Source: Flavobacterium sediminilitoris
Lineage (GTDB): Bacteria; Bacteroidota; Bacteroidia; Flavobacteriales; Flavobacteriaceae
Length of the DNA stretch: 64,000 nucleotides
Assembly: GCF_023008245.1 (NCBI RefSeq)
Contig: NZ_CP090145.1
Span: 2,976,001 to 3,040,000, forward strand
Direction of reading: 5' to 3'
This document shows, piece after piece, positions 49,748 to 64,000 of the stretch. A program made the position numbers and the translations under genes. A model generated the notes under the pieces. That model was not told the DNA's origin, searched no databases, and was given only the letters and a program-made list of their open reading frames with translations. The number at the start of each line of letters is the position of its first letter. Within the stretch, counting starts at the first letter, position 1.

Positions 49748-50041
49748 TTAGTCCTTGAGAATCTCAATTACTTTTCCATATACTTGCTTGGTCCAACCGT
49801 TTATATGTCCGTGATTGTTGCCTATTTGTAAGCCTCTTCTTTCGTTTTTCGCTTTTACTAAATGCGTATACACGTTGCCTCTTACTTTACAATACACTAT
49901 ATCACCTACATTACATTCTTCCCAACTTGTGGGTGCTAATCGAACAGCTTGCTTGGACTTTAAAATAGGTAACATACTGTTACCGGCTTCTCGAGAAACA
50001 ATGGTTTCTCCCTCTAATAGTTTTTGAATTTTGATATTCAT
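49748..50041 (-). CDS. S24/S26 (LexA/UmuD-like) peptidase-fold protein
   Basis: This is 97 residues from the start at 50041 (MNIKIQKLLEGETIVSREAG). A longer frame from 50089 is less likely. It has the catalytic Ser context GNSMLPILKSKQAV and downstream strands IVYCKVRGNVYTHLVKAKNE that could supply the Lys. No HTH is attached, so it is not a LexA-type repressor by itself. The promoter region carries the same 19-bp dyad found before the RNA ligase and TatD genes, tying it to the RNA-repair regulon. Confidence 0.82.
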   Translation of the reverse strand: MNIKIQKLLEGETIVSREAGNSMLPILKSKQAVRLAPTSWEECNVGDIVYCKVRGNVYTHLVKAKNERRGLQIGNNHGHINGWTKQVYGKVIEILKD

Positions 50042-50118: not shown

Positions 50119-50160
50119 CAAAATAAAAACACTCCTGCGTAATTATTTTACGTAGGAGTG
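50119..50160 (-). promoter_or_regulatory. RNA-repair dyad operator, copy 1 (within a larger hairpin)
   Basis: TGCGTAATTATTTTACGTA at 50136-50154 is one copy of the 19-bp dyad TACGYAA-N5-TTRCGTA. A minus-strand TTTG lies with its distal base at 50119, 26 bp from the dyad centre, as at the other two copies. Flanking bases extend it to a 13-bp stem (50130-50142 with 50148-50160) that may also act as a terminator. Confidence 0.72.
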
Positions 50161-50191
50161 AAATTTGTATTTTGTAAAATGTGCTTATATT

Positions 50192-51442
50192 TTATTCAAT
50201 TCCTTTCTCTAAACTTATTTTTTTAACTTTCGATAAATTATAAGTTATTCCAAAAAAGTGTCCAAATTTGAATTGAGTTTGCGTTGGTATTGTTCCTGAA
50301 TCACCAAGGTTATAAGAATTACCAACATTATAGGAATCTGCAATTCTTTCTACTTTTCCCATAGCAAGACCTGTTGTAAAAATAATACGCTCTTGTTTCC
50401 CTAATATAGCTCCAACACCTAACAAAAATTGAAACTTTTGATTGGCAGTTAGAGCTGCTCCAAAATTGATTGAAGGGACTATCCAAGAATTCATTCTTAT
50501 ATAAGTATTTACAGTAGAACCAAAAGCAAAATCATAGTCACCTCTATTTTTTAAAGTAATAATTTTATTTCCTGGAACTGTCAAATCATCCTTTGTGTCA
50601 AATTCACGATCATAAACTGAACTAAAAAATATCCCTGCACTGACATCAATTTTTAAACCCCCTTTAATCCAAATATTATAGGGCTTAGATGCAAAATTGA
50701 CATCTTCTTCTTTTGTTTCTTTGTCAAAACGTTTCAATTTAAATTCTATGGCATCAATATTTTGACCTTGAATATCAATTGGTAAGATGTATTGCTCTAA
50801 ATTAAAACTAAATAATTTTTTTATAATATTTCCAGTGCTTTTTTCAGCTTTATCTTTTGTTTTTAGTAAGCTTTTTTGTGTACTTAAATATTTGGCATCC
50901 TTTTTAAAATCTTCCAATTCATTGATTTGTTTATAATTAAATCCGTAAATCTTTTTACTAATTTTAAGAAATAATTCTCTTTTATCTTTATAATCATTTT
51001 CTTTTAGTACATCTTTTTGTTTCAAAATTTCATAGAGAGTTTCTACTTCAATATTTAATGAGTCAATGTATTCATTTAGTTTTTTATTATTGTCTATAAT
51101 ATTTTGAATAGTAGTTGTTGTCTCAATTAATTCTTTAATCTCTTCTTGTGAATTTTCATTATTTTTAACTTCATCAAGTTCTTTTTTTAGTTGTTTTTCA
51201 TCGTTAAAATAGGAAATACTTTTTGTGTTTATCTTATAATCATATTTTAATGGATTTCCATTTATTAATTGAATTGAAATCATATTTTTTGGTTTAACAG
51301 AAAGCCATTTAAAGTTATTTGTATTTGAAATACTATTTTCATTTGGCTTACCTAAATCGATCTTTATTATTTTGGTTTTTACTTGGCTATAACCAATAAT
51401 TCCAAAGAATAAAAAATATAGGATAAATGTTGTTGTTTTCAT
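50192..51442 (-). CDS. Secreted protein, probably outer-membrane barrel with coiled-coil region
   Basis: This 416-residue protein has a signal peptide (MKTTTFILYFLFFGIIGYSQ), a long helical/coiled-coil stretch at about residues 85-200 (ELDEVKNNENSQEEIKELIE), and a C-terminal beta-rich half. The latter (AGIFFSSVYDREF, FLLGVGAILGKQERIIFTTG, HFFGITYNLSKV) looks like an outer-membrane barrel. It is the last of three minus-strand genes divergent from the NarL-type two-component operon. No family is recognised. Confidence 0.78.
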   Translation of the reverse strand: MKTTTFILYFLFFGIIGYSQVKTKIIKIDLGKPNENSISNTNNFKWLSVKPKNMISIQLINGNPLKYDYKINTKSISYFNDEKQLKKELDEVKNNENSQEEIKELIETTTTIQNIIDNNKKLNEYIDSLNIEVETLYEILKQKDVLKENDYKDKRELFLKISKKIYGFNYKQINELEDFKKDAKYLSTQKSLLKTKDKAEKSTGNIIKKLFSFNLEQYILPIDIQGQNIDAIEFKLKRFDKETKEEDVNFASKPYNIWIKGGLKIDVSAGIFFSSVYDREFDTKDDLTVPGNKIITLKNRGDYDFAFGSTVNTYIRMNSWIVPSINFGAALTANQKFQFLLGVGAILGKQERIIFTTGLAMGKVERIADSYNVGNSYNLGDSGTIPTQTQFKFGHFFGITYNLSKVKKISLEKGIE

Positions 51443-51461
51443 AATATTAAAATTTTAATTG

Positions 51462-52211
51462 TTATTTTTTTAATTTGAATTCTCCTCCTTTTATGAGCCA
51501 TGAAATACCAAAGCATTCTACAGCAATAGTTTCTAGCCAAAAAGTAAGATGATGGGTTTTGTGAAAGTCATGAAATGAATTAGGAACAATTTTATTAAAA
51601 TAGTCGCTTCCTAAAAAGATTAAGATTATTGAAAAAATCATTATGACTCCAAGAATTCTATATATTTTATGTCTAAAATCAATTTGTTTTTTTGAATCTT
51701 CATAACCCTCACTTGTTTTTGTAAATCGAAAAATTGACATATAGGCTAACGACAATAAGAAAATTCCTGCGGATATGTAATGAGTGATTTCTCTAGTAGG
51801 GTCTTTTTCTAAAATAGTAATTATATGTTTTTTTGAAATATTTAAACAACCTTGTAGTAAGCTATCTGTGGGTAATAAAACAACAAGTAATGCAGAGATT
51901 CCTGTAATTGAAGAGATTATAAAATCGATGAAAACATTTCCTTTATACACAATAAAGAAAATAGCTAGTAAAGACATTATGGCAATAAATAGAGGACCCG
52001 ATTTTGTATAATAATAATGACTTATTGAAGGGAGTAATTCTTCTAAATCATCGGTTAAATAAAGTAGTAGAGGTAGTAATAAAGGCAATAGAATGCCTAA
52101 TATACCTATTAACCTTCGTAGCGTATAAGTACTTTTTAGCCATATATCTTTATCAGTATTATAATTAATATTAAGTAACTCATATTTATTGTTATGAATA
52201 GAGGTTTTCAT
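51462..52211 (-). CDS. Six-helix membrane protein (DUF998-like topology)
   Basis: This 249-residue protein has about six to seven transmembrane helices (LIGILGILLPLLLPLLLYL, GPLFIAIMSLLAIFFIVY, FIISSITGISALLVVLLPT, and others). A C-terminal FWLETIAVECFGISWLIKGG motif is also present. The topology recalls DUF998-type proteins, but the match is not certain. It lies 19 bases upstream of the barrel gene and 11 bases after the collar-domain gene, in one operon. Confidence 0.78.
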   Translation of the reverse strand: MKTSIHNNKYELLNINYNTDKDIWLKSTYTLRRLIGILGILLPLLLPLLLYLTDDLEELLPSISHYYYTKSGPLFIAIMSLLAIFFIVYKGNVFIDFIISSITGISALLVVLLPTDSLLQGCLNISKKHIITILEKDPTREITHYISAGIFLLSLAYMSIFRFTKTSEGYEDSKKQIDFRHKIYRILGVIMIFSIILIFLGSDYFNKIVPNSFHDFHKTHHLTFWLETIAVECFGISWLIKGGEFKLKK

Positions 52212-52222
52212 AATATTATGAT

Positions 52223-53485
52223 TTAATTAATTCTAACATAATAGTATACTGTAACATTTTTAGGTCTTGTTTCAGAACCACCTTTAGAATCAGTTTTTAA
52301 TTGTAGATATCCGGCCCAATTACCTGGATCAAGGTCTTCGCTAGCAGGATAACCATGATTTCTATGCCCTAATGTTAGTTTTTCAGTTGTATGAAAATGT
52401 GATTCGAAAATATCCTTTTGAAAATCACCTGCAACTCTATTTTGACCATCAACATCTTTTTGTTGCTCACTTACTTGATTTGTATAAAAAGGATCAAATT
52501 GATTTAACCCTCTTAAAAAAACACCTCGAAGATCTGGTGTATTAGACCTACCTGTTTTTCTTGTATACTTAGAAGTAGAAATAGTTCTTCCATCGGCAGG
52601 TGCCCATTTAGACTTGCTTGCATCCCAAGCACTAGAACTAACATTTTCAGTAATTTGAGAAAAACTATTCCAATCTAAAATAGAAGTAATTATTGATCCT
52701 ACTGGAAATTCTTTTTCAAAGCCAACATCGCTTCTTTCTACTAGATAAACTAAATTTTCTCTATCCGTATTTATGGATAAAATCAATTCGTTTTCAGGAT
52801 ATCTTTCACAGGAGATACTTATTTGATCGGGAATGTTTTCTCCAATAGCTATACCTTGTATGATTTTTGTACTCCCAATAACTTTAAAATCTTTAACTTT
52901 AGGCATAGGGTCTGTGCTTATACTTTTTTTATACTTAATATTGAAGATTACATTTTTTGGCGTTTCTATAATGTTTTCTATAAAAAAGCCACTTTTTTGA
53001 TTAATAGTAACACACTGAACATAAGCTTTTGCTAATTCAACATCTGGTACAGCAGTAACTGAAGATTTATAAAACTTTTCATCGATTTGCAATGATTTTG
53101 CTATCCTAATTTTTTCTTGAAATTTATCTATTTCATTTTCAGAGGCACCAAAATCAAGACCAATTTCTGAAATTAAACCAGATTCTCCTACTGGAATAAC
53201 TCCATTAACTCCTAAATTCCATTTGTTAGATTTAAAATGATCTTTAAAAGTTTGTGATTCAAAATATGTTTTTAAATCACTGTTAAACGAACTGGTTTCT
53301 GTTTTTAAAATATATTTATAAAGACCATCTTTTAATATTGGTAAACAATCATTATTTTGAGAATAAGTAATATTTAAGGCAAGAAGTGAAAGTAATAAAA
53401 AAGTAATTTTTACTTGATTATAAAATAATAAGATGTGGTTTAAATAAAAGTAATTAGCTTTTACTTGTTTTTCATTTTTTTTCAT
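52223..53485 (-). CDS. Secreted protein with phage tail-collar-like C-terminus
   Basis: This 420-residue protein has a long-n-region signal peptide (hydrophobic core VKITFLLLSLLALNITYS). The N-terminal half is unassigned. The C-terminus looks like a phage tail-collar/fibre-tip domain: VGSIITSILDWNSF, WAPADGRTI, PDLRGVFLRGLNQ, ESHFHTT and GGSETRPKNVTVYYYVRIN. There are no other phage genes around, so this is a bacterial surface protein that has captured the domain. It is the first gene of the operon that diverges from the two-component genes. Confidence 0.82.
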   Translation of the reverse strand: MKKNEKQVKANYFYLNHILLFYNQVKITFLLLSLLALNITYSQNNDCLPILKDGLYKYILKTETSSFNSDLKTYFESQTFKDHFKSNKWNLGVNGVIPVGESGLISEIGLDFGASENEIDKFQEKIRIAKSLQIDEKFYKSSVTAVPDVELAKAYVQCVTINQKSGFFIENIIETPKNVIFNIKYKKSISTDPMPKVKDFKVIGSTKIIQGIAIGENIPDQISISCERYPENELILSINTDRENLVYLVERSDVGFEKEFPVGSIITSILDWNSFSQITENVSSSAWDASKSKWAPADGRTISTSKYTRKTGRSNTPDLRGVFLRGLNQFDPFYTNQVSEQQKDVDGQNRVAGDFQKDIFESHFHTTEKLTLGHRNHGYPASEDLDPGNWAGYLQLKTDSKGGSETRPKNVTVYYYVRIN

Positions 53486-53539
53486 GATTTTAAAGTTTTA
53501 GTTATTGTTTCAAAGGTATCTACACAACACTATACCAAT

Positions 53540-53563
53540 CAATTACCCTTTCGGGTGATATTG
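53540..53563. promoter_or_regulatory. Operator copy 1 (ACCC-N4-GGGT) in the divergent promoter
   Basis: This is a 24-bp site containing ACCCTTTCGGGT. It is the mirror image of 53632-53655 with a single mismatch. It lies 55 bases before the collar gene start. The site is likely bound by the NarL-type regulator encoded next door. Confidence 0.75.
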
Positions 53564-53631
53564 GTTACATTCCAATTCTTTTTTAAATAGTTTATTTCTT
53601 TTAAGATTTGTACATTTATTACTAATTTCCT

Positions 53632-53655
53632 CAATATCACCCAAAAGGGTAATTG
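53632..53655. promoter_or_regulatory. Operator copy 2 (ACCC-N4-GGGT) in the divergent promoter
   Basis: This 24-bp inverted copy of 53540-53563 lies 46 bases before the response regulator start. Together the two sites face both promoters symmetrically, with centres 92 bp apart. Confidence 0.75.
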
Positions 53656-53701
53656 TGTATGATTTGTTTATTGCTCAACTTTGTCCTGAAAATGTAACAA
53701 C

Positions 53702-54331
53702 ATGAAAATTAGAATTGCCATAGTAGAAGATGATAAAAACTATAACCAAGCTTTGAAGAAGATCATCGATTTTCAAAAAGATATGGAATGTGTAGCTCAA
53801 TTTTATAATGGCAAAACGGCTTTATCAGAATTGGAAGATTTAGAACCAGACGTGGTTTTAATGGATATTCAATTACAAGATCTATCAGGTATTGATATTG
53901 TGTTTCAATTGACAGAAACAATGCCTAACACTACTTTTGTAATGTGTACGAGTTTTGAAAATGATGAGAAAATATTTTCAGCCTTGCGTGCAGGTGCTAG
54001 TGGTTATCTCGTAAAAGGAGAACCAATGGATAAAATTATACAAGCCATACAAGAAGCTCATAAAGGAGGTGCACCCATGAGTTTTGCGATTGCCAAACGT
54101 GTTTTACATCATTTTCAAGAATCTAAAATACAGATTCAAAGTATTGCGTTACTTACCGTAACCGAAAAAGAAGTCCTAGAATTGCTAGCACAAGGGCTGC
54201 TCTACAAAGAAATTGCCGATAAAAAGTGTGTCACCATTGACACCATTAAAAAGCATATTGGCAATATTTATAGAAAGTTGCAGGTAAACAACAAAATTGA
54301 AGCGATTAATAAGTTAAACCACAAAAAATAG
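53702..54331 (+). CDS. NarL/LuxR-type response regulator
   Basis: This 209-residue protein has a receiver domain with D55 (VVLMDIQLQD) and a LuxR-type HTH at about 145-205 (LTVTEKEVLELLAQGLLYKE, TIDTIKKHIGNIYRKLQV). Its cognate kinase is the HisKA_3-type protein encoded three genes downstream. The symmetric ACCC-N4-GGGT operators upstream are its likely binding sites, so it should regulate both its own operon and the divergent envelope genes. Confidence 0.94.
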   Translation: MKIRIAIVEDDKNYNQALKKIIDFQKDMECVAQFYNGKTALSELEDLEPDVVLMDIQLQDLSGIDIVFQLTETMPNTTFVMCTSFENDEKIFSALRAGASGYLVKGEPMDKIIQAIQEAHKGGAPMSFAIAKRVLHHFQESKIQIQSIALLTVTEKEVLELLAQGLLYKEIADKKCVTIDTIKKHIGNIYRKLQVNNKIEAINKLNHKK

Positions 54332-54336
54332 AAATT

Positions 54337-55044
54337 ATGGGTAAGCAAAAATTACAAGAGAAAAGTATTAATAAAGCATTTTTGGATATATTAAAAATTG
54401 ATTTCCTTGATATCATGCCTGATGAAAGATTTCAACCAAGACATATAAGATTAGAAAACAAGAATATTAAAAACATGAAATATAATTTTTCAATCAATGC
54501 AGAAAGTTTTATTAACAAAATAATTGATTCTTATAAGAGTTTAGATGTTAAAATAAAAAATATTACAAACTACTTTAAAATCCACTTCATTGAAGATGAT
54601 AATAAAAAACTTTCTATTTGTTTTTCTATTTCTTCATTAGAAAATATGGAAATAGGTGAAGAAGACATTTTTTTTAAAATTGATGGTAATGATGAATTAG
54701 AAAAACTTGAAAAAGATAATAATGGAGAAATACCATATTTTAAAAAAAGGCGTCAAGGATTTCAAGATAATTTACTAAAAGATATTAATTTAAATACTAA
54801 AATTAATGGTCAAGAAATGGAAAATACTGAAGTAATTAGTTTTAAACTTAAAGACGTTTATTTGTTTATCATTAGTCATTTTTTATTAGAAAATGATTAT
54901 TCAAAGCTATATTTTCAAATGATAATTTTTGAGGAAGAATTTAGCGAAAAAAAGTATCGAAATAAATTGAGTTGTGTTGTTCGTGCAAAAAATAATTATC
55001 AAAAGCAAGGCGAAGCCTTCGATTTCGGAACTATTTACCCATAA
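54337..55044 (+). CDS. Hypothetical cytosolic protein in the two-component operon
   Basis: This 235-residue protein has no signal peptide or membrane segment. It has mixed alpha/beta composition with stretches LSICFSISSLENMEIGEEDI and NKLSCVVRAKNNYQKQGEAF. No family is recognised. It lies 5 bases after the response regulator and 3 bases before the next gene, so it is a fixed part of the operon. Confidence 0.75.
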   Translation: MGKQKLQEKSINKAFLDILKIDFLDIMPDERFQPRHIRLENKNIKNMKYNFSINAESFINKIIDSYKSLDVKIKNITNYFKIHFIEDDNKKLSICFSISSLENMEIGEEDIFFKIDGNDELEKLEKDNNGEIPYFKKRRQGFQDNLLKDINLNTKINGQEMENTEVISFKLKDVYLFIISHFLLENDYSKLYFQMIIFEEEFSEKKYRNKLSCVVRAKNNYQKQGEAFDFGTIYP

Positions 55045-55047
55045 CAC

Positions 55048-55692
55048 ATGGAAATATTACAACTTTTATATTTAAGTTGTTTACTAGTAACAACAACAAA
55101 AGCACTAGTTTTGAGCTTGAAGTATTTCCTTCGAGCTCAAAACTTTTTAGTAATTTATTTAGTAATCACACTTTTTTTAGAAGTTTTTGGATTGATTAAA
55201 ACCCATCTGAAACAATTTGACTATGCTATTTATTTTAATCTTTATGCTGTTTTTTGCATTATTTTCTTTAGTTTTTATTTCTCAAAGGTTTTCATTGGAA
55301 TATTAAAAAAAATACTCCTAATAGTAAGTTGTATTTTATTATGCTATATCTTTTTTTATGTTGATTTTCTAAGCCAACAATTTATAACTGAATTGGGAAT
55401 ATTAGTTGCTCTATTTTATATTTTTAATGCTATTTTATGGTTTTATCAAAAACTAAAACTACCTGTTGAAGAAAAAATCACTAATGATCCTAACTTTTGG
55501 ATTGCAACAGCTTTGCTTTTATGGAGTACGTATATTATTTTTAGATTTACACCCATGTATTTATTTGAAAAAGAGGATTTGTTTTTCTTAGGAATTTTAA
55601 GAAAAATAAGCTTAGTAGTTAATTTGGTAATGTATTTATTATTTTATATAGCTTTAGTAAAATATGGAGCTATAGCTAAAAAAGTAAACTAA
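55048..55692 (+). CDS. Six- to seven-helix membrane protein, likely sensor partner
   Basis: This 214-residue protein is almost wholly membrane-embedded (about seven helices: LLYLSCLLVTTTKALVL, FLVIYLVITLFLEVFGLI, LFLIVSCILLCYIFF, and others). Its stop shares a base with the start of the histidine kinase gene. The kinase itself has only one membrane helix, so this protein may be the actual sensor that the kinase reads. This is inference from coupling and topology. Confidence 0.82.
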   Translation: MEILQLLYLSCLLVTTTKALVLSLKYFLRAQNFLVIYLVITLFLEVFGLIKTHLKQFDYAIYFNLYAVFCIIFFSFYFSKVFIGILKKILLIVSCILLCYIFFYVDFLSQQFITELGILVALFYIFNAILWFYQKLKLPVEEKITNDPNFWIATALLLWSTYIIFRFTPMYLFEKEDLFFLGILRKISLVVNLVMYLLFYIALVKYGAIAKKVN

Positions 55693-56486
55693 TGAACGAA
55701 CTTCCACACGAAATAAAGCTTACCTATATCATTGCTATCATTGTAATGCTACTTTTTGTTGGGTTTATCATTATGGTGGTTTTTGTTTATAATAAAAAGC
55801 AACTGATTCAGCAGCAGGAAAATAAAATTAAAGAGAGTGAGTTCCAAAATCAATTATTACAAAAGGAATTAGAGCGTCAAAAAGCGATACAAGTAGAAAG
55901 AGAGCGTATTTCACAAGATATGCATGATGATTTAGGTGCTGGAATTTCGGCTATAAAGTTACAAGCTGAATTCTTAAAATATAAAATTAAAGAGGAAAGT
56001 TATATTGAAGATTTAGAAGCCATTATTACCACTTCGGAAGATATGAATTTGGCTATGCGAGAAATTCTTTGGAGTTTAAATTCTCAGCATGATACTATTG
56101 GTAACTTTATAGACTATACTAGTTTGTATGTTGAGCGTTTTTTAGATAAAACAGGAATAACATTACAATTGGATTCCAATATAATAGAGAGCGAAACCAA
56201 TTTGCCTGTAAAAGCTAGAAGAAATCTTTTCTTAGTAGTTAAAGAAGCGGTTCATAATGTTTATAAACACAGTCAAGCAAAAAACATAAACATTCAATTT
56301 AAACAAACATCAGTTGATTTTAAGGTTGAGGTAATTGATGATGGCATTGGCTTGTCTGAGGCAATTAAAAAAGGAAATGGCTTAACCAATATGGAATTGA
56401 GAATGGAAAAAATTGATGGTAAATTTGAAATTAGTAAAACAACAAAAGGAACTCATTTGTTATTTCAATATACCTTTACAGCTTAA
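55692..56486 (+). CDS. HisKA_3-type sensor histidine kinase
   Basis: This 264-residue protein has one N-terminal membrane helix (about 10-33), a short coiled coil, and the dimerisation box with H78 (ERERISQDMHDDLGAGI). An ATPase domain follows (VKEAVHNVYKHSQA, DDGIGLSEAIKKGNGLTNM). No sensor domain is present, consistent with sensing through the preceding membrane protein. It is the last gene of the operon and runs 4 bases into the convergent tatD gene. Confidence 0.93.
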   Translation: MNELPHEIKLTYIIAIIVMLLFVGFIIMVVFVYNKKQLIQQQENKIKESEFQNQLLQKELERQKAIQVERERISQDMHDDLGAGISAIKLQAEFLKYKIKEESYIEDLEAIITTSEDMNLAMREILWSLNSQHDTIGNFIDYTSLYVERFLDKTGITLQLDSNIIESETNLPVKARRNLFLVVKEAVHNVYKHSQAKNINIQFKQTSVDFKVEVIDDGIGLSEAIKKGNGLTNMELRMEKIDGKFEISKTTKGTHLLFQYTFTA

Positions 56487-57283
56487 ATCCTAAAGAAATC
56501 TTTTGCGTTTTTTGTAGTTGCCAAAGCTACTTCTTCCAAAGAAATCCCTTTAAAATGAGCAACAGTTTGTGCAACATAAGGTAGAAAAGCAGGTTCATTT
56601 CTACGTTCGTGATACTTGGTAAGACTTGTTTTAGGAACATTTTTGGGTAACATAAAAGGAGCATCGGTCTCAATCATTATTTTGTCTAATGGAACATACT
56701 TTACTACTTCTTCTAAATGAGCAAATCGTTTGGTATCGTTAATAGCTCCTGTGAAACCTAAATAAAATCCGTTATCTAGATACGTTTTGGCTTCTTGTAA
56801 AGTTCCTGTAAAACAATGTACAATTGCTTTTGGCAATTGCGGTAAATAGTCTTTAGTTACAGCCATGAAACGTGTAAAAGCAGCTCTTTCATGTAAGAAA
56901 AGCGGTTTTTGTACTTCGACTGCTAATGCTAATTGCGTTCGATAACACTTTTCTTGTTGGTCTCGTGGTGAAAAATCCCTGTCAAAATCGAGTCCGCATT
57001 CTCCAACAGCAACTACGTGTGGTAATTGTACTAATTTTCGAAGCTCTGAAATACTTTGGTTATTAAAACTTTTAGCATCATGCGGATGAATGCCAGCGGT
57101 TGAAAATAGGGTAGAAGGGTATTCTTTTGCTATTGTAGCTGCTGTTTTACTACCCTGTACACTTGTTCCTGTCAGTATCATTTGCGATACGTCATTGTCT
57201 AAAGCATTTTGAATGATAGTGTCTGTATCATTCTGGAATTGCCTATTTGTTAGGTTGATTCCGATGTCTATGTAATTCTTCAT
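56483..57283 (-). CDS. TatD-family metal-dependent hydrolase
   Basis: This is 266 residues from the start at 57283 (MKNYIDIGINLTNRQFQNDT). The longer frame would run back through a palindromic repeat and is rejected. Family motifs include AGIHPHDAK, VAVGECGLDFDRDFSP, LFLHERAAF, HCFTGTLQEAKTYLDNG and MIETDAPFMLPK. TatD proteins are metal-dependent 3'-5' exonucleases or deoxyribonucleases, also active on RNA. A copy of the RNA-repair dyad lies upstream, suggesting co-regulation with the ligase. Confidence 0.94.
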   Translation of the reverse strand: MKNYIDIGINLTNRQFQNDTDTIIQNALDNDVSQMILTGTSVQGSKTAATIAKEYPSTLFSTAGIHPHDAKSFNNQSISELRKLVQLPHVVAVGECGLDFDRDFSPRDQQEKCYRTQLALAVEVQKPLFLHERAAFTRFMAVTKDYLPQLPKAIVHCFTGTLQEAKTYLDNGFYLGFTGAINDTKRFAHLEEVVKYVPLDKIMIETDAPFMLPKNVPKTSLTKYHERRNEPAFLPYVAQTVAHFKGISLEEVALATTKNAKDFFRI

Positions 57284-57301
57284 ATTTATTATTTTATATT
57301 T

Positions 57302-57336
57302 TATATCTGACAGGTTTTTAAAACCTGTCAGATATA
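57302..57336. repeat. Perfect palindrome with ACCTGTCAGAT arms
   Basis: TATATCTGACAGGTTTT folds perfectly against its complement. A related sequence is at 61295-61323 (CCTGACAGG). It is probably a flavobacterial palindromic repeat rather than a gene-specific site, and it lies in the tatD leader. Confidence 0.75.
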
Positions 57337-57343
57337 GTTGCAA

Positions 57344-57379
57344 CAAATATTAGTAGGAAGTACGCAATTATTTTACGTT
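57344..57379 (-). promoter_or_regulatory. RNA-repair dyad operator, copy 2 (tatD)
   Basis: TACGCAATTATTTTACGTT at 57361-57379, with a minus-strand TTTG whose distal base is at 57344, 26 bp from the dyad centre. It has the same geometry as at 50119 and 60366. Confidence 0.7.
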
Positions 57380-57397
57380 GATACAATATTTAATAAA

Positions 57398-57853
57398 TTA
57401 TTCTAAATTAGTCCATTCTTTGTTTTGGAAATCCCAATATAATTGATTTTTAAAATTCATTTCCAATAAAAATTCAAATCCTTCTTGTAAAGAATTACCT
57501 AATTTAGAGAGCATTTCATCGTATAAATAAATAGTTAAATTGTTATCACATAAGATCATGGTATTTTCTTTTAACCAATCTCCAATTTTATATAATTCAA
57601 CATCGCATAAGTTTTTAAAAATTATAGTTTGATTTTTTAATAATCTAGTAGAAAAATCATATTCGTTAAAATGATCACTTTCATAAGGTTTTAAAATTAA
57701 ATCTCCATATTCAAATAAAAAATTTCTAATGGTTTCTGGAAAATGTTTCAAATCTTTTACTTTTAAATATCGATTACTTATATCTCTATTTTCATACCAA
57801 CCTGCTTTTATAAAAGATGTTTTTAATTTTTCATTTAATATAATCTTTTCCAT
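57398..57853 (-). CDS. SUKH-3-like immunity protein
   Basis: This 151-residue protein begins with the SUKH-3 pattern KTSFIKAGWYENRDIS and has PETIRNFLFEYGDLILKPYE and a terminal LLEMNFKNQLYWDFQN. SUKH-3 proteins usually neutralise nuclease toxins. No toxin gene is adjacent, so here it may have been recruited to the RNA-repair neighbourhood. It lies 5 bases after the upstream gene on the same strand. Confidence 0.8.
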   Translation of the reverse strand: MEKIILNEKLKTSFIKAGWYENRDISNRYLKVKDLKHFPETIRNFLFEYGDLILKPYESDHFNEYDFSTRLLKNQTIIFKNLCDVELYKIGDWLKENTMILCDNNLTIYLYDEMLSKLGNSLQEGFEFLLEMNFKNQLYWDFQNKEWTNLE

Positions 57854-57858
57854 TTTAT

Positions 57859-58542
57859 TTACTCATTTAAAAATTGTTCCAGAAAACCTATAAATTGCTT
57901 TCCATCGCTACTCCATCGCATGCCTTGTCCGTTTGCAATTCTAATTTCGTAAACTAAACCGTGTTTGTAATGAAAAAAAACATTCCACCAAGTTTGATTT
58001 TCTATAATATAATCAATTTGCTTCTTTATCGTAATTTCTTTTTCTTTCTGATTACCTTTTAAAGTTTCGAAAATGCTTTCTGGATAACGACCTACATGCT
58101 TTTCCCAAGCTTTTACTACTACTGTTGTTTCTTTGTTTAAAGGTAGAAAGCAACTCTCTAATAGTATATTTCGCAAAGGAGGAATAGCTGTTTCATCTTG
58201 CATACTTGCAGAAGTAATACGTTGCCCCATGAGTAATAACAATTCTTTAAAAGGAGTTTTTTCAAGTAGTTGACTAACAATTTTTGGTTCAACAAACTCA
58301 TTTTCATTAGCAAACACCTTTTTAAATTGGTTCAAAGCTTTTGCAAAATCTTGTTGTATTTCTTCTTCAAAATAGGGCAATCTGGTTTCGCTTGATGTCG
58401 AGTTTAATTGAATAAACAATTGTTTGGCAAAAAAAGACATCATCTCATCTTGTAGAAGAGCTTGATGTTTTATCGCCCAATCTTCTGAAATAAAGGCCTT
58501 TGCTGCTACCAGTGTTTTATGTAAGTTTTCTTGGGTGATCAT
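57859..58542 (-). CDS. Hypothetical protein in RNA-repair cluster
   Basis: This 227-residue protein is helical, soluble and without known motifs (e.g. KELLLLMGQRITSASMQDET, QTWWNVFFHYKHGLVYEIRI). It is encoded 5 bases before the SUKH-3-like gene and 7 bases after the DUF434-like gene, so the three form one operon. The function is unknown. Confidence 0.75.
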   Translation of the reverse strand: MITQENLHKTLVAAKAFISEDWAIKHQALLQDEMMSFFAKQLFIQLNSTSSETRLPYFEEEIQQDFAKALNQFKKVFANENEFVEPKIVSQLLEKTPFKELLLLMGQRITSASMQDETAIPPLRNILLESCFLPLNKETTVVVKAWEKHVGRYPESIFETLKGNQKEKEITIKKQIDYIIENQTWWNVFFHYKHGLVYEIRIANGQGMRWSSDGKQFIGFLEQFLNE

Positions 58543-58549
58543 TATCTGG

Positions 58550-59257
58550 TTAAAAAATCGTTTTACTGTCTATTTTTGTTTCAATTAAATAGGATGTCAA
58601 ATTAAACCAATTAATTGCTTTATCCAAAACAATTCCGTCAGAAGAAGCTACTATTTGATTGGAGTTTACAAGGGCTTGATCGGCATTATCTTCTAAGATT
58701 ACTTGCCAATTTAAATTATGGTCTGACGCTTTAGCTTCTATTTTAGCTTTAATTCGTCCACTGTTTGAAACTTGTTTATCGAAAATCCAAACGAGTCGCT
58801 GTAATTTACTTTCATTGTAAAAATGTACTACTAAATCAATAGCCTTTTCGGTTTGACTGACGGTTTTATAATTCCCATGAACGCTCGATAAATCGCGATA
58901 ACAAGTATCTTGTCCTTTGAAAATGTATCCATTAGACAAGGTACTTTCTAATAAAATTAGAATATTGAATCCATCGATTACTAGTGTTTTGTTTTCCAAG
59001 GTCTCAAATACTACTTCTTTTGCTTTACGAATTCTTAATTGTTCGTTAGAAGCACTCATGCCTTGTACAGCTTTTTGTTGGCGACTGGCTAATTTATAAC
59101 GTGTTCCTACAGTAAACAAGGCATTTTTCTCAGAATAACCTCTGGTTAATAGATAATTCATATCGACTAGGGCTTCTTTTAGGCTTTCTTTGAATTTGGG
59201 TGTGCCAAAAAAGAAATCGTCTTTGGCTTCTTTTCCTCTATTGCTTTGTTTTGACAT
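58550..59257 (-). CDS. DUF434/DUF5616-like protein (NYN/PIN-like fold)
   Basis: This 235-residue protein has an N-terminal helical domain (KEALVDMNYLLTRGYSEKNA). The C-terminal domain begins VIDGFNILILLESTL and includes VWIFDKQVSNSGRIKAKIE and EDNADQALVNSNQIVASSDG. Conserved acidic residues in these strands resemble NYN/PIN-type nucleases. I recall this as DUF434 plus DUF5616. It lies next to RNA ligases, so RNA cleavage or binding is plausible but not shown. Confidence 0.8.
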   Translation of the reverse strand: MSKQSNRGKEAKDDFFFGTPKFKESLKEALVDMNYLLTRGYSEKNALFTVGTRYKLASRQQKAVQGMSASNEQLRIRKAKEVVFETLENKTLVIDGFNILILLESTLSNGYIFKGQDTCYRDLSSVHGNYKTVSQTEKAIDLVVHFYNESKLQRLVWIFDKQVSNSGRIKAKIEAKASDHNLNWQVILEDNADQALVNSNQIVASSDGIVLDKAINWFNLTSYLIETKIDSKTIF

Positions 59258-59326
59258 GATTGTTTACTATTCTATGGTTGCAATTGAAATACAATAAGGT
59301 ATTTTATGAATGATAATTTTCTTTTT

Positions 59327-60346
59327 TTATTCCTCTTCACTATTCATAAATGGTTTTTCAAAAGTAGGACGAATTCTTTTCCAAATTTCGTGATCGTAAC
59401 TTTTGTTATCGAGCATTAAAAACAAAACTGCTGGAAATTGACAAGTATAAAAATAAACTGCTGTCTCTTTACGTGTTTCTAATATTTTAAAATCGTTTTT
59501 GCATTGTTCTTCAATTACTTGAAACTCTTTATTTAAAGTTTTAATTACATTTTTTACCCAGTTAAAAAACTCGTCTGGAACGTGCTCTAGCATAGCATCT
59601 AAAGGTTGTTTTTCTTTTAGATGTTCCCAAATATCAATACTTGTTAGTTGAGTAATAATACGATGCAAACGAACGTATTCATCAAATTTCACTTTCAATC
59701 GGAAACCGTTTTCAAACTTAATAACAAAACCTTCTTTGTTGTCATTTTGCAAACTTTTTAAAAAGGCAATATCTTTGATTCCATCATATTTTTCAACAAT
59801 TGGGAAACCAATGTCTTCTAAAGGCAATTCTACACCTGTTTGCGTATCAATGATACCTAATAAAACCAAAGCTTCTGTAGCACCATAATCTAAAACAATT
59901 CTATTTTCTGGATAAATAATTTCAAAAAGGTAGGTTTTGGATGTATCTAAACGTGACCAAATTTCTTTATAAGTCGAATGTAACATTTCCGTTGCTTTAA
60001 TGGCTTGATCGCTTGTAAAGGAGCCTCTACTCGCTATATATGGTTTTTTTTCAATCCAATATAAAATACCTAATGAACCATCCATTTTGTCATACACTTC
60101 AAAAGAGGTCTTTGGAATTTCTACACCTTCTTGTTCGCCCAAATTAAAAAACTTAGGAAAAGGTCTCGCAACAATATTTTGATTACCATCCATAATAATG
60201 CCACGACAGGCTAAGGTTACTTCGTTCCAAAGTTTTTCAAACTGTGTTGTTTGAGTATAGTTATAGATGTACAAATCCTGCTCAGGATGTTTGTTGCTCT
60301 TGATATAACCTTCTAAAATCATTTGGTTTAATAACGTAGTATTCAT
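59327..60346 (-). CDS. T4 Rnl1-like RNA ligase
   Basis: This 339-residue protein has the covalent nucleotidyltransferase signature. K87 is in EVYDKMDGSLGIL (motif I, KxDGS), TYLFEIIYPENRIV is motif III, NKEGFVIKF is motif IV and RLKVKF is motif V. The N-terminal ACRGIIMD element is typical of the Rnl1 family. The enzyme would join RNA 5'-phosphate and 3'-hydroxyl ends with ATP, as T4 Rnl1 does for cleaved tRNA. Its promoter carries the RNA-repair dyad. Neighbours supply the kinase/phosphatase needed to prepare ends. Confidence 0.94.
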   Translation of the reverse strand: MNTTLLNQMILEGYIKSNKHPEQDLYIYNYTQTTQFEKLWNEVTLACRGIIMDGNQNIVARPFPKFFNLGEQEGVEIPKTSFEVYDKMDGSLGILYWIEKKPYIASRGSFTSDQAIKATEMLHSTYKEIWSRLDTSKTYLFEIIYPENRIVLDYGATEALVLLGIIDTQTGVELPLEDIGFPIVEKYDGIKDIAFLKSLQNDNKEGFVIKFENGFRLKVKFDEYVRLHRIITQLTSIDIWEHLKEKQPLDAMLEHVPDEFFNWVKNVIKTLNKEFQVIEEQCKNDFKILETRKETAVYFYTCQFPAVLFLMLDNKSYDHEIWKRIRPTFEKPFMNSEEE

Positions 60347-60365
60347 TTCTTATTATTTTACGGTA

Positions 60366-60401
60366 CAAAGATGAAATACATGTACGTAATTATTTTGCGT
60401 A
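60366..60401 (-). promoter_or_regulatory. RNA-repair dyad operator, copy 3 (RNA ligase)
   Basis: TACGTAATTATTTTGCGTA at 60383-60401, with a minus-strand TTTG whose distal base is at 60366, 26 bp from the dyad centre. A partial second match (ATTATTTTACGG) lies nearer the start codon at 60351-60362. The dyad would overlap the -33 position, so repression is the simplest reading. Confidence 0.75.
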
Positions 60402-60464: not shown

Positions 60465-61175
60465 TTAAAGTTCTGCGGTGACTTTCATTTTTGGTACTTC
60501 CACTTCAATAACAGCAATGAATTGAGTAACAAATTGTTGAATTGTTTCCATCTTTGTATTGGGTAATCGTTTTAAAAAAGGTTCTAATTCTGGAAAATAG
60601 GCAACAATTTCTTGCTTACTATACACTTCTACACCGTCATATAAAGCAAGTGTTTGCCCCAATTGAAAAGCCATTGACTTTTTTAAATCTAAAGCATTAC
60701 TTCCTTTACCAAAATCTTCAACTGTATTAAAATCAATTGTTTTCAAGGCTTCTATTTTAACATAAATATCTTGTTTTAGAGACTGTTTTACGATTGTTCT
60801 GTATTGTGTTTTAGAGATAAAGGATAACAACATTCGCAAACAACGAATCATTTTCAAGTGAATATCTCGTTTTACAACATTAGTAATTCGATTATCAAAA
60901 TCTTGTTGGTGCAAATGAAAAGTTCTTAGAATAGCATTGTTCAATTCGTCCGCTGTTCCTTTGTAAACCTGAATAATTTGACCGTTTTCACAAACCGCAA
61001 GATTGGCATTGATTGTTTTGGTTGGATATTTTTCAACTAATTGAGCGCTTAATTTTTTACTTAAAGCTAATTTATTAGCAATGGTTTCTGGCATTTTCTC
61101 AATGAAGAAAACCACATCACAATCTAATGAATCGACAGAACCGAAAAAATGATAAGGAGAATTAGTATTTTTCAT
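60465..61175 (-). CDS. Nucleotidyltransferase-like protein of RNA-repair cluster
   Basis: This is 236 residues from the start at 61175 (MKNTNSPYHFFGSVDSLDCD). A start at 61208 would lie in a palindromic repeat. The GS-x-DSLDCDVVFFIE element is the active-site signature of pol-beta-type minimal nucleotidyltransferases (GS then D-x-D). A helical C-terminal part follows. It may add or repair RNA 3' ends, or modify tRNA. This is inferred from fold motif and from neighbours. It lies between the RNA ligase and the polynucleotide kinase on the same strand. Confidence 0.78.
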   Translation of the reverse strand: MKNTNSPYHFFGSVDSLDCDVVFFIEKMPETIANKLALSKKLSAQLVEKYPTKTINANLAVCENGQIIQVYKGTADELNNAILRTFHLHQQDFDNRITNVVKRDIHLKMIRCLRMLLSFISKTQYRTIVKQSLKQDIYVKIEALKTIDFNTVEDFGKGSNALDLKKSMAFQLGQTLALYDGVEVYSKQEIVAYFPELEPFLKRLPNTKMETIQQFVTQFIAVIEVEVPKMKVTAEL

Positions 61176-61200
61176 GAGATGCTTAATTTTCACACTCAAA

Positions 61201-61323
61201 CTTGTCATGCTGGAAGCATCTCATTAGTTGCTCACATATTTGTTTGCGGAATTACTAATGAGACCCTTACAGGGTGACAAGATTGTGTCATAATACCTGT
61301 TAGGGTTTTGAAACCTGACAGGT
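61201..61323. repeat. Two flavobacterial palindromic repeats in tandem
   Basis: First, an imperfect inverted repeat at 61201-61281 with arms CTTGTCA...CTCATTAGT and ACTAATGAGA...TGACAAG. Second, a hairpin at 61295-61323 with arms ACCTGTTAGG and CCTGACAGGT, related to 57302-57336. They form the spacer between two genes and may serve as a terminator. Confidence 0.65.
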
Positions 61324-61332
61324 GTAAAGTTT

Positions 61333-62235
61333 TTAAAAATTCCCGTAATATACTTGGAAACAAGGTAGTTTTAAATCATTTCTCCACATATCAACTACTT
61401 GGTTTCTATCGTCTAATACAAATTCGATGAAATATTTGTTACGAATTTCGGTATCGAATAATTCCGTTTTAATTACGCTATCTTTTCGGCTGTCTTTACT
61501 TTTTCGCATGAATAAATGATCGTATTCAATGTTGTATTTTTCCAAAAATCGTAACGTAGGTTCTTTGTATTTATCTTCTCTTCCTGAAAGTAAAATAATT
61601 GTATGTCCTATGTTTTTATAATTTTTTAAGATATTCGCAACGGGTTCATTCAACAAATCTTCATCACATTTACTAGCATCAAAAGGGTTTCTTCCGTTCA
61701 TTAAGGCTAATGTTCCATCTAAATCACAAATTATAGCTTTTGGTAATGAAGTATCTTGCGCTCCGTATTCTAAATCTTTTCGTCTAATTTTTTTTATTGG
61801 TTCGAAATCGAAATTCGTTTTCAGGTTTTCCAATTGTTTGAACATGTTTTCAATAACTGGTTTTGGTACTACTCGAGTACGTTTTGCGTTACGATCTAAC
61901 AGTTCGTCTAAAGGAACGTCAAACAATTTGAATTCAATGTTGGCTAAATCACTATATTCTTTAATGGCTGTCTTGATATAGTCTTTTTTGGTATGACAAT
62001 TATCCAAAACTACATTCCAGCCGTTAGATAATAGCGTTTTCACTTGCTCATGAACCATTTTAGTAATCATTTTCTCTACAGTATCATCTGTTTTTTCCTG
62101 GAATTGTGAAAATCGGATTTCATCTCGACTTACTCGAAATGTTTTTGGCTCTGATTTTACAAGCCATTCGGCAAACGTACTTTTTCCAGATGCTGGACAA
62201 CCTATTAGTAGTGTTAGTTTTGGTGTTTTTTTCAT
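61333..62235 (-). CDS. T4 Pnk-like polynucleotide kinase/phosphatase
   Basis: This 300-residue protein has an N-terminal 5'-kinase with P-loop GCPASGKST (residues 12-20), D-x-C in VVLDNCHTKKDY and lid RNAKRTRVV. Its C-terminal HAD phosphatase has D171-L-D173-G-T (ICDLDGTLA) and VLDDRNQVVDMWR. The order matches bacteriophage T4 Pnk, which removes 2',3'-cyclic or 3'-phosphates and adds 5'-phosphates so that RNA ligase can seal tRNA breaks. With two ligases beside it, a complete break-healing and sealing pathway is encoded here. Confidence 0.95.
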   Translation of the reverse strand: MKKTPKLTLLIGCPASGKSTFAEWLVKSEPKTFRVSRDEIRFSQFQEKTDDTVEKMITKMVHEQVKTLLSNGWNVVLDNCHTKKDYIKTAIKEYSDLANIEFKLFDVPLDELLDRNAKRTRVVPKPVIENMFKQLENLKTNFDFEPIKKIRRKDLEYGAQDTSLPKAIICDLDGTLALMNGRNPFDASKCDEDLLNEPVANILKNYKNIGHTIILLSGREDKYKEPTLRFLEKYNIEYDHLFMRKSKDSRKDSVIKTELFDTEIRNKYFIEFVLDDRNQVVDMWRNDLKLPCFQVYYGNF

Positions 62236-62420: not shown

Positions 62421-63605
62421 CTATAATCTTGGATCTAACGTTTTTTCAATTTCTTCGTTATTGATTCGTTTTAACAACAATAATTTCATTAAATAGTTCT
62501 CTGCATTCAAGGATTTATATGGAATTTCTAACATTTGTTGGTTAATTTCCCAACCATTGATAGACTGTTCTAATTTTCTTTTGATGTTCCTGCGTTCTAA
62601 ATAATAGTCAAAATTAGCATTAAAATTGATTCCGTAAATCATCGTGAGATAATTGTTGTTTCTTACTTTAAAGCAAGGTGGCAATCCTTTTACATAACTT
62701 TTCGCTGGTTTTATCATAATACCTTCCTCGTTTTCAGTAGTTAACGTATTAAAAAAATCATATATTTTAGCTAAATTATCGGCTTCATTTTCGGGTGTAA
62801 AATTCAAATGTAAAAAGACATCGTCATTTACTAATGTATAGGTTAAATTACTATTCGGAAGCGTTTCTTTACCGTCATTATGTACTACTTTTAAAATATT
62901 GAAGGGTTTAAAATGTAAACTATCTTCTTTACCAAACGTATCAATTTGTTTTTTAAAAATGGCTAATGATTCCTTTTGTTTTGGAATATCGACTACTTTC
63001 AAATTAGCAATAGCATCGTATTGTCTTATAACGTGACTTGGATATTTTTCTTTTAACTCTTTATTTTTCAATACTTTATTGTCTTCAAGATACTTAATAT
63101 AGCTTTCTGAAGCTTTAACTGTATTAATTTTACGATACAAATTACTATTTTCTAAATAATTGGTATGTGTTTCCAAAGCGTCATGATAGGCATTGTATTC
63201 TCTTTCGATTAATCCACCTCCTAAAATGCTCCATGGCAATAATTCTGAAGCGATAATTAGCGTATCAAAATCAGGATATTGAATTAGCATTTTTTGGTGT
63301 AGCTCTTTCAAACTATTTTTAGCTATTTCCAAATCGATATGTTCTATTTTATGACCGTTTCTAGAAATAAAATAGGTGTCTGCTAAATTCCGTTTTAGAT
63401 AAATACTACAATACGAACCCATGTACTTTTTTTGTACTACAATTTCGGTTTGATTTTCACGCAAGAAGAATTTTACTGCTTGCCGAATGCTTTCTATTTC
63501 GCTACTCTCCATATATTTCGGAGCTGGTGAAATGGTTGGTGCAAAATCGTTTATTTGATTGTTACTGAACCATTCTATTCTTTTTTTTATTTTTATGTCG
63601 ATCAT
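62421..63605 (-). CDS. Second RNA ligase-family nucleotidyltransferase
   Basis: This 394-residue protein has the ligase motif I K60-Y-M-G-S (VVQKKYMGSYCSIYLKR). Further motifs are a motif III-like LIIASELLPWSILGGGL, motif IV NEEGIMIKP and motif V PCFKVRNNNYLTMIYG. It has M in place of the usual D in KxDG, as in bacterial Pnkp ligases (KxMGS). It differs from the Rnl1-like protein at 59327 and may seal a different set of ends. Its gene is bracketed by two REP-like repeats. Confidence 0.88.
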   Translation of the reverse strand: MIDIKIKKRIEWFSNNQINDFAPTISPAPKYMESSEIESIRQAVKFFLRENQTEIVVQKKYMGSYCSIYLKRNLADTYFISRNGHKIEHIDLEIAKNSLKELHQKMLIQYPDFDTLIIASELLPWSILGGGLIEREYNAYHDALETHTNYLENSNLYRKINTVKASESYIKYLEDNKVLKNKELKEKYPSHVIRQYDAIANLKVVDIPKQKESLAIFKKQIDTFGKEDSLHFKPFNILKVVHNDGKETLPNSNLTYTLVNDDVFLHLNFTPENEADNLAKIYDFFNTLTTENEEGIMIKPAKSYVKGLPPCFKVRNNNYLTMIYGINFNANFDYYLERRNIKRKLEQSINGWEINQQMLEIPYKSLNAENYLMKLLLLKRINNEEIEKTLDPRL

Positions 63606-63755: not shown

Positions 63756-64000
63756 TTACTGTTTGTAAACAATCATGGCGCTTGTTGGATAAACTCCGTT
63801 AACGCAATCTCCAATGCCATGATATTCCGTTTTATTTGGAAATATCGAAGCGATTAAGTTGATGAATTCTTGTTTCGTTAATTCGAAATCGTGGTCGTCA
63901 TGACGAAATTCTTCTGTCATTTCATAGTTTACGTTGAATTCGCTATTAGGAGTCGTGATAAACAAGGTTGTAAAATGAATGTTCTCTTTTATCCAATACA
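63756..64000 (-). CDS. Hypothetical protein, 5' end outside window
   Basis: The frame is open to the window edge. The visible C-terminal 80 or so residues include YWIKENIHFTTLFITTPNSE, EEFRHDDHDFELTKQEFINL and GDCVNGVYPTSAMIVYKQ. No family is recognised. It is on the same strand as the RNA-repair genes and may begin that operon. Confidence 0.75.
   Translation of the reverse strand, partial: YWIKENIHFTTLFITTPNSEFNVNYEMTEEFRHDDHDFELTKQEFINLIASIFPNKTEYHGIGDCVNGVYPTSAMIVYKQ

Follow-up and report, generated by a model that had tools for sequence, protein, structure and literature searches.

The window analysed here, 64,000 nucleotides of the 3.9-Mb single-contig genome of Flavobacterium sediminilitoris (C1:2976001-3040000), contains three copies of a 19-bp dyad that belong to a scattered regulon with one shared dyad and one shared promoter geometry. 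To judge from comparative sequence evidence, the dyads are probably sites of an activator with a WYL domain that drives a scattered set of RNA-repair genes. The sites, their spacing, the genes behind them, and the co-occurrence and adjacency of WYL genes can be read directly from the genomes.

The dyads were found where the original prediction had placed them (50136, 57361, and 60383) with one, one, and no mismatches, respectively. At up to one mismatch nothing else in the window matches; 0.01 such matches would be expected, and none of 100 shuffled sequences reached three. At up to three mismatches the count was at chance level (8 matches versus 9.07 expected), so that only close matches are meaningful. 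The copies at 50136 and 60383 have TTTGTACC in common, as had been noticed before. On the minus strand, TTTG begins 14 nt past the dyad in all three copies; the predicted distance of 26 bp holds from the dyad centre to the far edge of this box, with 23 bp to its first T.

50136 to 50154, minus strand: dyad 1, TACGTAAAATAATTACGCA in the direction of transcription
50119 to 50122, minus strand: -7 element TTTG of promoter 1
57361 to 57379, minus strand: dyad 2, AACGTAAAATAATTGCGTA in the direction of transcription
57344 to 57347, minus strand: -7 element TTTG of promoter 2
60383 to 60401, minus strand: dyad 3, TACGCAAAATAATTACGTA in the direction of transcription
60366 to 60369, minus strand: -7 element TTTG of promoter 3

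The central 5 bp of the dyad were also conserved (TACGYAATTATTTTRCGTA on the plus strand), giving the spacer-extended motif TACGYRRAATARYTRCGYA in the direction of transcription. Up to three mismatches, 17 matches to this motif were found in the whole genome. Eight of them form a promoter class with a single orientation, in two clusters, and have TTTG at 14 (n = 5) or 15 nt (n = 3); the first base of the motif differs in two of the eight.

Genome positions 3026136, 3033361, 3036383, 3041075, 3045116, 3045873, 3373989, and 3375775: the eight promoter-class dyads

The dyad is tied to gene starts and is not the common repeat that had been considered as a counter-explanation. Six of the nine other matches were inspected; TTTG stood at 15 in locus L009 and at 13 in L008, and none was seen at 13 to 16 in the other four. 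The L009 dyad (genome 1700354, TACGCAAGATATTTATGTA) is weaker and is either a ninth site or a chance match. As an RNA hairpin the dyad would, by eye, often be expected to have C-A mismatches at positions 5 and 15, and it was therefore read as a DNA element.

Mapped promoters of F. johnsoniae carry TAHHTTTG with T-8, T-7, T-6, and G-5 (PMC6847099). With TTTG taken as this -7 element, the dyad centre falls at -31/-32, over the -33 region. The overlap with -33 claimed earlier thus stands; the term operator, in the sense of repression, is less apt, as the geometry fits an activator better. Core promoters were compared in the named loci, the best 80 of 469 WYL relatives, nearly all labelled Flavobacterium. 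A replaced T-12 in 147 of 160 promoters with a spacing of 15 and in 35 of 40 with a spacing of 14, and A-11 was retained in 159/160 and 40/40, respectively. In the eight promoters of F. sediminilitoris, T-12 was retained in two and A-11 in seven. The A-rich dyad centre kept a nearly constant orientation. A spacing that hardly varies, a constant orientation, and a -7 box that departs from consensus would suit an activator bound over the -35 region.

The likely binder of the dyad, as far as sequence comparison can tell, is a WYL-domain protein. In F. sediminilitoris it has 350 aa, is encoded about 270 kb away (C1:3313922-3314974, locus L048:3923-4975, minus strand), followed by an RlaP gene, and is 63 to 64% identical to the site-associated WYL proteins of relatives. 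The WYL (PF13280) and WCX (PF25583) domains were matched above cut-off; no helix-turn-helix (HTH) domain was matched in Pfam, and a low-confidence model shows N-terminal helices. In Foldseek searches with this model, DriD and PafBC ranked best (E about 1e-11; TM 0.25 to 0.42, the model being poor), followed by CapW and BrxR at about 5e-7 and weaker; on the whole, TM-scores were 0.2 to 0.4. A profile search gave PafC at E 0.0017 and DriD-like entries at 0.08 to 0.24. As observations on other WYL orthologs, some (L047:4397-5962 and L068 to L077) lie in open frames of about 520 to 640 aa, the protein in L047 has a long C-terminal extension, and a Flavo-1 RNA (RF01705) stands directly ahead of the WYL gene in L042 (12851-12941) and also occurs at L039:17616-17705.

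Site and WYL protein occur together. The genus sample of 101 genomes had the strict site in 36, a WYL protein of at least 60% identity in 36, and both in 35 (Fisher 7.6e-25). Across 199 genomes of the family, the strict motif with TTTG was found in 10 and control matches in none, and all 10 fall within the 35 genomes with a WYL match (8.6e-9); shared ancestry makes both P values indicative. The strict site was absent from six genomes of the genus whose only WYL protein is 45 to 51% identical. One exception in the genus (G564) has dyads with a variant centre beside the WYL gene and rtcB, and in another genome (G546) the site precedes a 365-aa protein that by eye is Band-7-like, comparable to that in L090. 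Nine foreign regions were anchored on the DNA pattern alone; a WYL gene of about 340 to 520 aa was near the site in eight, rtcB-like genes were present in eight, and in the ninth region (G176) the WYL gene is on a different contig.

The association extends to more distant relatives. Around WYL relatives, 25 of 30 loci contained the dyad, compared to 1.3 expected from shuffling (maximum 5 in 200 rounds), with TTTG at 12 to 17 in 18 of the 30; of 27 further loci taken phylum-wide, 23 contained it. Several phylum-level relatives have CATTG-like letters in place of TTTG. Every named locus had at least one dyad with TTTG (80/80); the box was present at 200 of 220 dyads, and TTTG stood at 14 or 15 in 200 of 205 boxed sites. 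The first genes behind these 205 sites belong to the rtcB family (47) or encode a RING protein (42), RNA ligase (13), or Hen1 (8); 66 were unlabelled, 15 sites had no gene within 900 nt, and other kinds were few. The unlabelled genes include one for a 505-aa protein with TROVE and Ro60 vWA domains (by Pfam, in one member, L083) and one for a 365-aa Band-7 protein (in one member, L090). Pnkp is also among the targets. As a separate observation, a HEPN AbiV-type protein is encoded behind the RING gene region of a Flavobacterium (L103:4328-4957, minus strand), with a dyad adjoining.

Several observations weigh against a WYL activator at these dyads. The dyad is missing in 5 of the 30 loci around WYL relatives and in 4 of the 27 phylum-wide loci, TTTG stands at the right distance in only 18 of the 30 and 14 of the 27, and 20 of the 220 dyads in named loci have no box. 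No WYL gene was found in G546 in spite of its site, the dyad scan before the WYL gene and rtcB of F. sediminilitoris found none, two of its eight dyad promoters keep T-12, the structure model of the WYL protein is of low quality (pLDDT 62, pTM 0.30), and the shared ancestry of the genomes has been mentioned. In F. johnsoniae, promoters in general are described as showing little of a -33 element (PMC6847099), and a poor -33 at dyad promoters is therefore weak, non-discriminating support for activation.

The strongest alternative keeps the WYL protein on the dyad and makes it a repressor, released by a ligand, in the manner of BrxR and CapW. BrxR is a repressor whose inverted-repeat sites have a 5-bp spacer (PMC9122601), a dyad in this position would block polymerase, and both CapW and BrxR are among the fold matches of the WYL protein. 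However, the better matches, DriD and PafBC, are activators, BrxR binds downstream of its promoter (PMC9122601) and not at a fixed 14 to 15 nt from a -7 box, and neither the nearly constant orientation of the A-rich centre nor the usually off-consensus -12 position speaks for repression. A repressor is thus rather unlikely. Far less probable is a different binder, such as the NarL-like response regulator (53702-54331) encoded with a histidine kinase. Its gene sits between dyads 1 and 2, in a region (53702-56486) that is syntenic near the sites of G541, a member of the same genus, and palindromic sites suit regulators of this type; yet relatives of it were met in none of the 9 loci anchored on the site and in 3 of the 80 anchored on WYL, compared to 8/9 and 80/80 for WYL (the 80 having been selected by WYL), and it was rejected as the binder.

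The genes behind the dyads support an RNA-repair regulon under a WYL activator. Within the window they are as follows, with operons assigned by strand and spacing as sole criteria.

49748 to 50041, minus strand: S24-like protein, 97 aa from ATG, similar to the UmuD'/LexA catalytic domain, no HTH
56483 to 57283, minus strand: TatD-family nuclease gene (ATG at 57283; PF01026)
59327 to 60346, minus strand: RNA ligase of the T4 Rnl1 kind (PF09511), first gene after dyad 3
58550 to 59257, minus strand: DUF434-DUF5616 protein, RNA ligase run
57859 to 58542, minus strand: protein p227, RNA ligase run; relatives stand beside rtcB/tatD in L126
57398 to 57853, minus strand: SUKH-3-like protein (PF14433), last in the RNA ligase run
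63756 to 64000, minus strand: end of the Hen1 gene (whole gene at genome 3039756-3041033), first gene after dyad 3041075
62421 to 63605, minus strand: Pnkp-type RNA ligase (PF16542), probable Hen1 operon
61333 to 62235, minus strand: polynucleotide kinase-phosphatase (Pnkp; PF25109, AAA_33), probable Hen1 operon
60465 to 61208, minus strand: protein p247, probable Hen1 operon; relatives stand beside Hen1/ligase in L103

The T4 Rnl1-kind ligase matched TIGR02308 below its cut-off. Outside the window, dyads precede p180 and p193 (both in L013), a leader RNA with an operon for a RING protein (L014), and a second leader in L014 followed by a secreted protein gene. The RING operon continues with genes for an RNase-T exonuclease, an endonuclease V-like protein, and a MoxR-vWA-beta-propeller set; a T4 Rnl2-type ligase and an RLIG1-type protein are encoded upstream of it, and a scan ahead of these two genes found no strong dyad. 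No Pfam or NCBIfam matches were obtained for p227, p247, p180, and p193. The RNA-repair set of F. sediminilitoris comprises RNA ligases, Pnkp, Hen1, and RlaP, with RtcB and TROVE among the targets in relatives; a TROVE search of its own genome gave no match. Two side observations concern the same genome: an inverted repeat, CTGACAGGTTTTTAAAACCTGTCAG, lies at 57308-57332 between the -7 box and the tatD ATG, and the rtcB gene (L163:5005-7814, minus strand) is followed by a small protein that by eye looks like PrfH and, in contrast to many rtcB genes of relatives, has no dyad.

The predicted link between RNA-repair genes, tatD, and the S24-like gene through one shared site was upheld. In G541, dyads precede the syntenic S24-like gene, a tatD-containing operon, and rtcB; some 2.5 kb separate the dyad of the tatD operon from the WYL gene. 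In L126, a single dyad is followed by rtcB, a small open reading frame, and the genes for the S24-like protein, TatD, DUF434-DUF5616, and p227, an order that explains why these genes have the dyad in common in the window.

The S24-like protein is a member of the regulon. Its predicted structure (pLDDT 74.5, from two sequences) best matched the catalytic domains of LexA and UmuD' at E 1e-3 or weaker and TM about 0.6, and a sequence search against solved structures did not place it. In an alignment of four homologues, Ser is present in GNSMLP and a His is invariant, presumably at the place where the catalytic Lys is expected. That it is the LexA/UmuD-type regulator of the set, as the weak fold likeness and its own dyad might suggest, is scarcely credible, since the 97 aa are catalytic-domain-like only, with His at the expected Lys position and no DNA-binding part, and relatives occur in just 2/9 and 1/80 site-holding loci; the protein is a target, not a regulator.

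Two leaders behind dyad promoters of F. sediminilitoris contain tRNA-like RNAs.

L014:9500-9935 (genome about 3373500-3373935), minus strand: interrupted tRNA-like RNA before the gene for a 747-aa RING protein (MXAN_6230/SCO0854-like)
L013:4773-4905, minus strand: apparent circularly permuted tRNA-like fold with the 3' half first, before p180
L097:6400-7480, minus strand: apparent circularly permuted tRNA-like fold in a relative, before rtcB

The leader between the 3373989 dyad and the RING gene combines the interrupted tRNA-like sequence with five GGTCAA-N7-TTACTTC units, one of them imperfect; of five exact unit matches in the whole genome, four are in this leader. Its relatives scored 45 to 50 bits with the Rfam tRNA model, above cut-off; the leader itself stayed below cut-off in Rfam, with the T-arm fragment alone, as tmRNA, at 13.9 bits. 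ARAGORN found no tRNA in L042. In the named loci, each of the 71 sites ahead of the RING gene had both a T-arm and the unit. In 40 RING-leader RNAs, 3 to 5 units were counted in each (191 in total), and the fourth and fifth units form covarying hairpins of the pattern GGUCAA-stem-UUACUUC-loop-stem'-N-AUUAY. At the hairpin register, 259/266 positions paired in the fourth unit and 230/231 in the fifth, compared to 34 to 42% in registers shifted by one and 8% and 70% in those shifted by two. The first unit paired less well (231/273), and the third paired better than shuffles, while the second did not. Folding of the L014 leader was more stable than that of shuffles (z -2.72); the whole L013 leader was not (z -0.29).

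In that leader, behind the 3045116 dyad, related units surround the apparent circularly permuted tRNA-like fold, which is closed by a GAGA loop. ARAGORN accepted the permuted halves of this leader and of L097 only when they were rotated, with coordinates that partly wrap the ends, and its support for the permuted fold is therefore weak. A further kind of tRNA-like leader RNA, with a dyad promoter of its own, was seen at L090:9059-9324 (minus strand), before the Band-7 gene, and at L121:8149-8415 (minus strand), before a second dyad.

WYL binding, a dimer, activation, and an inducer are inferred. In this model a WYL activator, probably in the form of a homodimer, would occupy the dyad centred at -31/-32, over the place of a -33 element, and would aid the housekeeping polymerase where the -7 box mostly departs from consensus. 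A single signal, presumably some nucleic acid bound by the WYL domain, would then turn on RNA ligases, Hen1, Pnkp, tatD, the S24-like gene, the RING operon, and the tRNA-like RNAs, and in relatives also rtcB, TROVE/Ro60, and the Band-7 gene.

Ligases, end-healing enzymes, nucleotidyltransferases, TROVE, and Band-7 proteins with tRNA-like RNAs were reportedly brought together by Burroughs and Aravind in 2016; we know of no operator or regulon map in that work, which may mention WYL neighbours. A literature search that did not extend to the main RNA-repair survey met neither an operator nor a regulator of RNA repair for Bacteroidota, and no account of such a regulon. The nearest described activator is DriD of Caulobacter crescentus, whose consensus ATACGAC(X)7GTCGTAT lies over -35 at a constant distance in non-optimal promoters (PMC12340889). 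The likeness covers WYL and WCX domains, a 19-bp TACG-N11-CGTA frame, a site over -35 at a fixed distance from -10, and non-optimal core promoters; DriD, however, serves the DNA-damage response with a single-stranded DNA ligand (PMC12340889), whereas RNA-repair genes and RNAs stand behind Bacteroidota-type promoters here. PafBC of mycobacteria, among the best fold matches, is likewise a WYL activator; it works together with the housekeeping holoenzyme by sigma adaptation and is triggered by single-stranded DNA, but it is a heterodimer that controls DNA-damage genes (PMC11804915). BrxR and CapW share the WYL protein and an inverted repeat with a 5-bp spacer, but repress phage-defence genes (PMC9122601). 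The rsr-yrlBA-rtcBA operon of Salmonella resembles the regulon in its RtcB, Ro60-like protein, RNAs with tRNA-like domains, and single activator, and its YrlA RNA, encoded beside rtcBA, is a known parallel to the leader RNAs; RtcR, in contrast, is a CARF-AAA+ activator of a single operon (PMC7790460), unlike the candidate WYL regulator with its scattered regulon and -7 TTTG promoters. A DriD-like WYL activator in control of RNA repair would probably be a new combination of known parts.

Site, geometry, and candidate activator together allow RNA-repair genes and new RNAs to be listed on a genome scale, including p227, p247, p180, p193, and the RING protein, and make the inducing signal testable. 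We hold it as a tentative idea, somewhat short of an even chance, that this is a phylum-wide RNA-damage response, in which the WYL domain would directly sense broken RNA (RNA ends, or tRNA that has been cut), much as DriD and PafBC sense single-stranded DNA, and would turn on repair enzymes along with RNAs that mimic tRNA and consist of repeated hairpins and, in places, a circularly permuted tRNA-like fold. If broken RNA is the inducer, RNA damage would have a dedicated sensor from a class described for single-stranded DNA in the parts of the reports cited above, and the regulon would be an analogue of SOS for RNA.

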